From an uncultured Bacteroidia bacterium (GTDB lineage: Bacteria > Bacteroidota > Bacteroidia > Bacteroidales > Prolixibacteraceae), in NCBI GenBank assembly GCA_903905505.1, contig CAIVGL010000022.1, positions 83,322 to 147,321 on the forward strand: a stretch of DNA of 64,000 nucleotides. The letters are read 5' to 3'. Both the position numbers and the translations under genes were made by a program. Each line of letters opens with the position of its first letter. Position 1 is the first letter of the stretch. This document shows, in pieces, positions 3,067-46,856 of this stretch. The notes beneath the pieces were generated by a model. That model had not been told where the DNA came from. It made no database searches and worked only from the letters and a program-made list of their open reading frames with translations.

Positions 3067-3456
3067 ATGGCAAAAAAGACTGGAGTATCTAAGAAAAGAG
3101 TTGTGAACATCGAGGCTGTTGGACAGGCTCATGTATCATCCTCTTTTAATAATATCATCATCTCGATGACCAACAACAATGGAGAAGTTATCTCCTGGTC
3201 GTCAGCTGGTAAAAAAGGGTTTAGAGGGTCAAAAAAGAATACCCCTTATGCGGCACAAACTGCATCTGAGGAGTGTTCCAAGACCGCTTTTGACCTTGGA
3301 CTGCGTAAGGTGAAGGTTTTTGTTAAAGGACCGGGAAACGGACGTGAATCTGCTATTCGTGCAATGGCTAATGTTGGAATCCAGGTGACTGAGATTGTGG
3401 ACGTTACTCCATTACCACATAATGGATGTCGCCCTCCTAAACGTCGTCGTGTCTAA
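3067..3456 (+). CDS. rpsK: 30S ribosomal protein S11
   Basis: [44 protein letters not shown]...[17 protein letters not shown]. Confidence 0.97.
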
Positions 3457-4107: not shown

Positions 4108-5100
4108 ATGGCAATTCTAGCTTTCCAGAAGCCGGATAAGGTGATAATGATCGAGTCGGATAATCGAATTGGAAAATTCGAATTTCGTCCACTTGAGCCT
4201 GGTTACGGTATTACCATTGGTAATGCTCTCCGGAGAATTTTGTTATCGTCTTTAGAAGGGTACGCAATAACAACAATCAAAATAGAAGGGGTAGAACATG
4301 AATTCTCTACAATCCCTGGGGTAATTGAGGATGTAACCGAGATGATCCTTAACTTGAAACAAATCCGTTTCAAAAAGGTGGTCGATGATTTCGATAGCGA
4401 GAAAGTTTCTGTTTCAATCTTTGGACAGGATACTTTTAAAGCTGGCGATATCAACAACTTTATCACTGGGTTTAGAGTTCTTAATCCTGAGTTATTAATC
4501 TGCAACATGGAATCAGGCGTTAAACTTCAGATTGAACTTTCAATCGAAAAGGGTCGCGGCTATGTTCCTGGAGTGGAAAATAAACCAGCAGAAGAGGAAT
4601 TCGGTGTGATCCCTATCGATTCGATCTTTACACCAATCAAAAATGTAAAGTACGATATCGAGAACTATCGCGTAGAACAGAAAACAGACTACGAGAAATT
4701 GCTTCTTGAAATCACCACTGATGGTTCTATCTACCCGAAAGATGCGTTGAAGGAAGCAGCTAAGATTTTGATTTATCACTTCATGCTATTCTCCGACGAG
4801 AAAATCACCCTTGATTCTGACGAGAAATTTGCCAATGAAGAGTTCGATGAAGAGATTCTACATATGCGCCAACTTCTTAAAAATCGCTTGGTAGATCTTG
4901 ACCTTTCTGTTAGAGCCCTCAACTGCCTTAAAGCAGCTGATGTGGATACCCTAGGAGAATTAGTAACTTATAATCGTAACGACTTATTGAAATTCCGGAA
5001 TTTTGGAAAGAAATCATTAACCGAACTTGACGATTTATTGGTTAACCTCGGTTTGAGTTTTGGGATGGATATCAGTAAGTATAAATTAGACAAGGAATAA
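4108..5100 (+). CDS. rpoA: DNA-directed RNA polymerase subunit alpha
   Basis: [32 protein letters not shown] plus C-terminal alpha-CTD. Confidence 0.97.
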
Positions 5101-45937: not shown

Positions 45938-46165
45938 TGTTACTTGAGATTATATGTTGTATAACATAGAGATATTTCTTCGACTCATCTGGAGCTCCGC
46001 AACCATAAATAAACTATTCCCTAATTTCAAAAAAAAGATTGTGCTGTTTGGAAAAAATATTCGACGATTGTAAGCACTTAAGTTTTTAGTGAATAATTGA
46101 AGTCATTATAATGATGATCAACTCTTAATTCGCTGCATATTTAGAAGCATTCTGTATGCAAATAA

Positions 46166-46199
46166 AAAGAGTTGCAAGTTAATGTACTTGCAACTCTTT
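46166..46199 (-). terminator. Terminator hairpin at the end of the tRNA-like array
   Basis: AAAGAGTTGCAAGT-TAATGT-ACTTGCAACTCTTT; 14-bp arms. Confidence 0.65.
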
Positions 46200-46209
46200 A
46201 TAATTTCAG

Positions 46210-46284
46210 TGGAGAATATCAGAATCGAACCGATGACCTTCCCGATAGCCATCGGGACGCTTTATCCTTAGTTTGTTACATCAC
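46210..46284 (-). pseudogene. tRNA-Ala-like remnant 1, anticodon arm replaced by palindrome
   Basis: T-arm and 3' acceptor match tRNA-Ala(GGC) with one difference; TCCCGAT-AGCC-ATCGGGA at 46240-46257. Confidence 0.7.
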
Positions 46285-46341
46285 GACTAGACAGAATAAA
46301 AAAGGAGTTGCAATGTTACTTACAACTCCTTGATTATTAAA

Positions 46342-46417
46342 GTGGAGAATATCGGAATCGAACCGATGACCTTCCCGATAGCCATCGGGACGCTTTATCC
46401 TTAGTTTGTTACATCAA
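46342..46417 (-). pseudogene. tRNA-Ala-like remnant 2
   Basis: Identical T-arm and 3' acceptor half; palindrome at 46372-46389. Confidence 0.7.
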
Positions 46418-46475
46418 GACTAGACAGAATAAAAAAGAAGCTGCAATATTACTTACAACTCCTTGATTTTAAATG

Positions 46476-46551
46476 TGGAGAATATCGGAATCGAACCGAT
46501 GACCTTCCCGATAGTCATCGGGACGCTTTATCCTTAGTTTGTTACATCACG
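46476..46551 (-). pseudogene. tRNA-Ala-like remnant 3
   Basis: Identical T-arm and 3' acceptor half; palindrome TCCCGAT-AGTC-ATCGGGA at 46506-46523. Confidence 0.7.
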
Positions 46552-46609
46552 ACTAGACAGAAATAAAAAAGGAGTTGCAATGTTACTTACAACTCCTTGA
46601 TTATTAAAG

Positions 46610-46683
46610 TGGAGAATATCGGAATCGAACCGATGACCTTTTGACTGCCAGTCAAACGCTCTAGCCAACTGAGCTAATCCCCC
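46610..46683 (-). tRNA. tRNA-Ala (GGC)
   Basis: Minus strand GGGGGATTAGCTCAGTTGGCTAGAGCGTTTGACTGGCAGTCAAAAGGTCATCGGTTCGATTCCGATATTCTCCA; TTTGA-CTGGCAG-TCAAA anticodon arm. Confidence 0.92.
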
Positions 46684-46691
46684 ATTTTGTG

Positions 46692-46769
46692 AATCGAACC
46701 AATGACCTTCCCGATCTGCTTCGCTGTCGGGACGCTCTAGTCCCGATTACTATCGGGAAGCAATCCCCC
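46692..46769 (-). pseudogene. tRNA-Ala-like remnant 4, palindromes at both anticodon-arm and D-arm positions
   Basis: AATCGAACCAATGACC, then TCCCGA..TCGGGA, CGCTCTAG, TCCCGAT-TACT-ATCGGGA, then CAATCCCCC; flanks match tRNA-Ala. Confidence 0.6.
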
Positions 46770-46856
46770 ATTATCAATCGAACCAATGACTTTTACGATT
46801 ACAACAGGAGGGTAAAAATACAATTATTTCTGTTTAAATTGTACTACTTTTGCACT

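Follow-up and report, generated by a model that had tools for sequence, protein, structure and literature searches.

Half tRNA-Ala units with palindromes in place of the anticodon arm: probable relics of a small GIY-YIG element in a Prolixibacteraceae contig

Introduction

Mobile DNA is well known to settle in tRNA genes. The window analysed here is a stretch of 64,000 nucleotides from contig CAIVGL010000022.1 of an uncultured Bacteroidia bacterium (Prolixibacteraceae). It contains an intact tRNA-Ala(GGC) gene flanked by partial copies in which a palindrome occupies the place of the anticodon arm. These units are probably the gene-less relics of a small mobile element, a free-standing GIY-YIG gene that would invade a tRNA gene and supply a copy of one half of that tRNA, so that the gene is whole again. 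If this is true, chromosomes would harbour a new sort of parasite, consisting of a single gene, selective for tRNA isotype and able to rebuild the tRNA that it has broken. Such a parasite would account for the large numbers of tRNA fragments and of small GIY-YIG genes seen in Bacteroidota and in other phyla, and would provide a natural library of tRNA-isotype-specific nucleases. It also raises the question of why the broken copy so often gains a palindrome in place of an arm.

Organization of the tRNA-Ala locus

All features of the array are on the minus strand and are given in positions of the window. The intact tRNA-Ala(GGC) gene, which an earlier sequence-only reading had placed on this strand, was found at 46609/46610-46683 by ARAGORN and Rfam (tRNA, 67.8 bits) and is read here as the gene that would have been invaded and restored. 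A terminator hairpin follows immediately (46565-46608), of a type common to the next two units as judged from sequence, repeat family D2 and terminator comparison. Downstream in the order of transcription are three direct repeats with spacings of 133, 133 and 134, in agreement with the near-identical units of 132-134 bp described earlier. Unit 1 (46475-46523) is composed of a palindrome at 46506-46523 (loop TGACTA) and a tRNA-Ala 3' half at 46475-46505; unit 2 (46342-46390) of a palindrome at 46373-46390 (loop TGGCTA) and a 3' half at 46342-46372; and unit 3 (46209-46257) of a palindrome at 46240-46257 and a 3' half at 46209-46239. All three were delimited by sequence and repeats. The units read AGCG, TCCCGAT-N4-ATCGGGA, AGGTC, as against AGCG, TTTGACTGGCAGTCAAA, AGGTC in the intact tRNA, and the palindrome thus lies at the place of the anticodon arm, as claimed before, with tRNA positions 27-43 swapped exactly. 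An 18-nt palindrome stands where the tRNA has a 17-nt anticodon arm, and full T-arm, acceptor strand and terminator follow. The hairpin and T-run that were said to close each unit are borne out by the sequence, and one unit was folded.

The stretch in front of each palindrome had been taken for a degraded D-arm and 5' acceptor. Only its terminal AAAGCG is tRNA-like; the remainder is a spacer, homologous to that of the related genome G005. It extends from the terminator of the tRNA to the first downstream palindrome (46524-46561), and further copies with the same AAAGCG end lie at 46391-46427 and 46258-46294. The position of this spacer, between tRNA terminator and palindrome, is the site of the GIY-YIG gene in the ORF-bearing relatives (counterpart in locus L057, see below). 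The window array holds no ORF; lacking the nuclease gene by which a SegB-like element is recognized, it is filed as a relic.

Upstream of the tRNA, re-reading of the window revealed a 5'-half unit and a T-arm fragment beyond it, both absent from the earlier description. The upstream remnant (46689-46771) comprises, by sequence, the 5' acceptor strand, a D-loop palindrome, TAGAGCG, an anticodon-arm palindrome, AGGTC and the start of a T-arm. In the D loop, TCCCGATAGTAATCGGGA (46741-46758) replaces positions 13-19, and TCCCGACAGCGAAGCAGATCGGGA (46709-46732) replaces the anticodon arm; both are of the TCCCGA..TCGGGA type. An additional decayed T-arm fragment (repeat family D3) is located at 46773-46799.

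Distribution and forms of the palindrome

The non-random order attributed to the units is far above chance. The pattern CCCGATN2-8ATCGGG has 12 matches in the home genome, and the reversed control pattern has none. In 148 Bacteroidota genomes 962 palindromes were counted against 50 for the control, with 132 genomes exceeding their own control and 3 falling below it. By pattern searches of the genome-wide context, 11 of the 12 palindromes of the home genome lie in remnants of tRNA-Ala, tRNA-Met(CAT), tRNA-Asn and other tRNAs, and one is in coding sequence. Among 285 palindromes in tRNA context, 201 replace positions 27-43, a count biased by the search pattern. The D-loop positions 13-19 are replaced 11 times and the T-arm 10 times, the T-arm assignment being lenient, with a few matches, L016 among them, that are due to chance or lie in coding sequence.

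The commonest inverted repeat at the junction is TCCCGA..TCGGGA, and other sequences go with particular tRNA types and positions: CCTGCCTGCCGGCAGGCAGG in the D loop of the U-type elements (defined below) of tRNA-Arg, TCCGCC..GGCGGA in the tRNA-Met types, and forms such as TCCCGAAGGGATCCCTTCGGGA in the tRNA-Ser types. At the same remnant in related genomes the stems are constant, and the loops differ in length and sequence. A check for compensatory change, proposed with the sequence-only reading, gave a positive result, in that the pairs flanking the fixed stem core remain complementary where they vary. The loops of Ala(GGC) remnants contain GG in 31/69 cases, those of Met in 1/69, and the Ala loops are also richer in GG than those of tRNA-Ile remnants. 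This is suggestive of loops that retain part of the anticodon loop, but is not relied on, as the loops of Val(CAC) likewise hold GG. tRNA-Val remnants with a replaced anticodon arm were seen at L229 (G007:C18) and, in the home genome, at L015 (C59); the L229 array mixes ORF-less and ORF-bearing units.

Occurrence in relatives and in other phyla

A search of related genomes, also proposed earlier, found the units in relatives. The upstream tRNA-Ala remnant is present in G004, G005, G010 and G014, and is shorter or partly different in G006 and G019. Four relatives (G001, G012, G018 and G024) have an empty site, with no remnant and a clean junction of promoter and tRNA. The terminator of the last unit (46162-46208) is nearest to the form found in relatives without downstream units; its best scores were obtained with the terminators of G024, G001, G004 and G007, and a different form is common to the intact tRNA and to units 1 and 2. 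This pattern fits an original 3' half that was displaced by an incoming one. On this moderate signal, downstream unit 3 is read as the displaced original host half. The 3'-half conservation that had drawn attention to the downstream units would follow from their being this displaced half and its copies; in the units on the 5' flank it is the 5' half that is conserved.

A 23-base DNA pattern spanning the anticodon-arm substitution detected substituted remnants in at least 117 contigs, among them many Bacteroidota including named isolates. Other phylum labels among the listed contigs are Acidobacteria, Nitrospirae, Chloroflexi, Ignavibacteria, Marinimicrobia, Patescibacteria, Armatimonadetes, WOR-1 and others; many of these contigs are metagenome bins, and individual labels are less certain than the breadth as such. 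The named isolates and single-contig genomes among the matches argue against an assembly artefact.

The GIY-YIG nuclease gene

An ORF of about 80 amino acids encoding a GIY-YIG protein is present in 52 of the 117 listed pattern-matched contigs, and at all 52 loci the distance from the ORF to a palindrome is no more than about 350 bp, mostly 15-60 bp. The elements measure approximately 300-500 bp, carry one nuclease gene and occur in two arrangements. In the D type (L049, L054, L086) the order is intact tRNA, ORF, (T)AGAGCG, palindrome, AGGTC and the 3' half of the same tRNA. In the U type (L050, L065, L068) it is 5' half, GAGCG, palindrome, AGGTC, ORF and intact tRNA. The ORF has a frame of its own next to the tRNA and does not lie within an intron; introns were not detected, an Rfam scan of 16 representative loci yielding tRNAs only, and no integrase ORF was noticed in the units that were read.

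When loci were picked by the protein alone, with no use of the palindrome, 140 distinct strong ORFs were obtained. An intact tRNA lies within 500 bp of 113 of them, upstream in 84 and downstream in 29, on the same strand in every case. Roughly one strong ORF in five lacks an intact tRNA at this distance, in some cases because the contig ends. Weakly matching GIY-YIG proteins show the association in 9 of 30 cases. In 92/112 loci the flank of the ORF opposite the intact tRNA holds a remnant of that tRNA, at an alignment score of at least 40, compared with 4/112 control windows, and in 105/112 the remnant scores higher with its own tRNA than with 15 randomly drawn tRNAs of other isotypes. A GC-rich hairpin of at least 6 pairs is present on the remnant side in 85/111 loci and in 103 of 555 control windows. 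We infer from this arrangement that the adjoining tRNA is the target of the nuclease. The same genomes hold a second group of small GIY-YIG genes without tRNA association (weak HMM matches L153-L155, L158, L159 and L161).

The Pfam GIY-YIG family was matched by all 18 aligned proteins, in which Y7, Y18 and E64 are invariant, R28 is conserved in at least 90% and H32 in all or nearly all. The nearest solved structures by sequence are UPF0213 and SLX1, and the predicted model (mean pLDDT 86) matches the same two best. The UPF0213 entries in the PDB are titled hypothetical proteins and give no function; SLX1 is a structure-specific host repair nuclease. To our knowledge, neither has been linked to tRNA genes. 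A protein search of plasmid and phage records returned only distant GIY-YIG relatives (Listeria, Staphylococcus).

A tree was built from 103 nucleases and 81 columns; it has many open forks and limited internal support. On this tree the tRNA isotype (16 states) requires 31 changes, against a mean of 73 and a minimum of 67 when shuffled; the host family (15 states) requires 51 against 72.5, and the U/D arrangement 11 against 21.7. The nuclease thus holds to the tRNA isotype more tightly than to the host family, as would be expected of a nuclease adapted to a tRNA gene and moving between hosts.

ORF-bearing and ORF-less copies are adjacent in one array. In locus L057, the tRNA-Ala(GGC) locus of another bacterium, the intact tRNA is preceded by units without an ORF and followed by two units, one lacking the ORF and one carrying it, the latter with the same spacer as in the window. 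Its ORF-less unit looks like the ORF-bearing one minus the gene. L057 shares the upstream and downstream kinds of ORF-less unit with the window, which has ORF-less forms only, and it is by this anatomy that the window array would be a member of the element family. The only tRNA-associated GIY-YIG gene found in the home genome lies on the home contig outside the window, with tRNA-Asn remnants, at C22:30411-30805 (gene C22:30486-30728). A tandem row of seven near-identical GIY-YIG copies, mostly about 435 bp apart, was seen in a single-contig genome (L212, G059:C1:3370300-3375200), with palindromes between the copies and a tRNA-Asn nearby.

Proposed origin of the units

The course of events that probably produced the array would begin with the nuclease cutting the tRNA gene of its own isotype, at or near the arm that is later found replaced. 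Repair of the break would copy in the element together with its tRNA half, by which the tRNA would work again; the resulting structure is present at the loci described. The displaced host half would remain on the outer side of the element, and a short inverted repeat would take the place of whichever arm lies at the junction (anticodon arm, D loop or T-arm). The least secure step concerns what the palindrome does. It may mark the junction and deprive the displaced half of its target, protecting the element against renewed excision, and it may double as the element's own recognition hairpin. Tandem arrays could arise through repeated cutting and repair or through unequal crossing over, and the later loss of the ORF from such arrays would leave units like those of the window, provided that the change ran in this direction. 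Several points weigh against this account. The intact adjoining tRNA should remain a target, so self-cleavage must be limited in some way; the destruction of a site needs no inverted repeat; and the D-loop and anticodon-arm palindromes within one remnant require more than one event.

Comparison with known systems

The closest precedent is SegB of the T-even phages, described in PMC13096335 (citing Brok-Volchanskaya et al. 2008) as a free-standing GIY-YIG homing endonuclease of the tRNA gene region of T4/T6. According to the same source, SegB cleaves within tRNA genes, the recombination that amplifies the unit of tRNA and segB in tandem depends on it, and donor alleles are reportedly cut poorly by free-standing GIY-YIG enzymes. 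The SegB motif RAWTSGAAC appears, in our reading, to resemble the complement of the tRNA T-arm. Both systems have a GIY-YIG gene adjoining tRNA genes and tandem units of tRNA plus nuclease. However, SegB is a phage gene, whereas the present elements were found in bacterial genome contigs; unlike SegB, the present nuclease lineages each keep to one tRNA isotype, carry half a tRNA and leave palindrome-substituted remnants.

Group I introns occur in bacterial tRNA genes, some of them with homing endonucleases (PMC3984707), and likewise direct a nuclease gene at the anticodon region, but in the present case a duplicated half, and not splicing, makes the tRNA complete again. A group I intron at the locus itself was considered and rejected, since no intron core RNA interrupts the tRNA (Rfam, window and 16 loci). 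Integrative elements that target tRNA genes (prophages, islands) also insert in the gene and restore it with a part that they carry; the present elements differ in the junction palindrome, in the 5'-half versions and in having one nuclease gene only. REP/RAYT palindromes (PMC3733652) and the palindromic elements of Rickettsia are similarly short and mobile-looking, but the present palindromes are almost confined to tRNA remnants and have a different partner gene. In the open-access literature, a body from which subscription papers and preprints are largely absent, no account was found of GIY-YIG elements specific to a tRNA isotype in the chromosomes of bacteria. Searches of this literature also found no paper on the palindrome-for-arm substitution or the 16-base palindrome, and none on GIY-YIG or UPF0213 together with bacterial tRNA remnants, the matches being mostly to fungal mitochondria. 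The element is thus apparently undescribed, and the palindrome substitution appears to have no precedent in open-access papers.

Alternative explanations

The fixed stems, free loops and complementary outer pairs suggest that the dyad or hairpin itself matters, and this leads to the alternative that survives best. An SLX1-like nuclease would recognize hairpins or cruciforms, and the palindrome would be the end of the element, swapped for tRNA arms, which are hairpins as well; insertions into a working tRNA would be lethal and hence visible only in redundant copies. Such an exchange is possible, though rather doubtful. It accommodates the replacement of whole arms, the stems that stay fixed at one remnant across related genomes while the loops vary, the complementarity kept by the pairs flanking the core, and the structure-specific SLX1 as the nearest characterized relative. 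It is at odds with the several palindrome sequences, each tied to a tRNA type and position, with a palindrome that is not detected beside every ORF (27/113), and with its near absence outside tRNA remnants in the home genome, although other hairpins, such as terminators, abound there. The general form of the idea, to be regarded as tentative, is that of minimal elements spanning phyla, in which an isotype-specific SLX1-like GIY-YIG nuclease would exchange DNA hairpins, with the tRNA arms as target, the palindrome as the element's end and the tRNA regenerated at each insertion.

That the units form a family of tRNA-mimic small RNAs or decoys, selected for the T-arm, the palindrome hairpin and their own terminator, was one of three readings offered earlier, and it found no support. 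Each downstream unit has its terminator, T-arm and acceptor strand are intact and the palindrome stems are kept. However, the upstream units keep the 5' half, without T-arm and 3' acceptor strand; the predicted minimum-energy fold of a unit is not tRNA-like and pairs the 5' arm of the palindrome with the T-arm; Rfam does not call the units tRNA; they decay in relatives; and the tie to a nuclease gene is left unexplained. We consider this reading improbable.

A REP-like element that targets tRNA arms came nearest of the three readings to the present result, inasmuch as a mobile element does appear to target tRNA genes; its partner is a GIY-YIG gene, however, and the palindromes have no REP transposase gene nearby. 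In its stricter form, in which REP/RAYT-type palindromes inserted into tRNA remnants by chance, the proposal is likewise improbable. The palindromes are short and GC-rich, and the home genome has four Y1 transposase genes (C21, C97, C107, C127). None of the four is near a CCCGATN2-8ATCGGG palindrome, 11 of the 12 palindromes are in tRNA remnants instead of being scattered between genes, and by inspection no GTAG or CGTC tag was seen at the palindrome ends.

Tyrosine-integrase islands with the anticodon loop of a tRNA gene as their insertion site would leave attachment-site scars, but the units are very unlikely to be of this kind. Such islands seem to be present at the same tRNA in G014, where 3' halves are cut in the anticodon loop, but these halves are without palindrome and bound larger gene modules, and the 5'-half units, the palindromes of D-arm and T-arm and the GIY-YIG association would remain unexplained.

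It is hardly credible that a dead tRNA was simply duplicated in tandem, the copies being inert and no mobile element involved. The window units are near-identical and without ORF, and tandem duplication, the remaining earlier reading, did occur, but the duplicated things would be relics of the element and not a dead tRNA, and the same substitution arose independently at many tRNAs and in many phyla.

The G014 islands were seen at L020 (G014:C250), where tRNA-Ala(GGC) is followed by larger modules between palindrome-free 3' halves (about 1130-1160, 3240-3300 and 4980-5040). By eye, one of these modules resembles an AbiEi/AbiEii pair and a second one an AAA-ATPase, and they are probably ordinary tRNA attachment sites.
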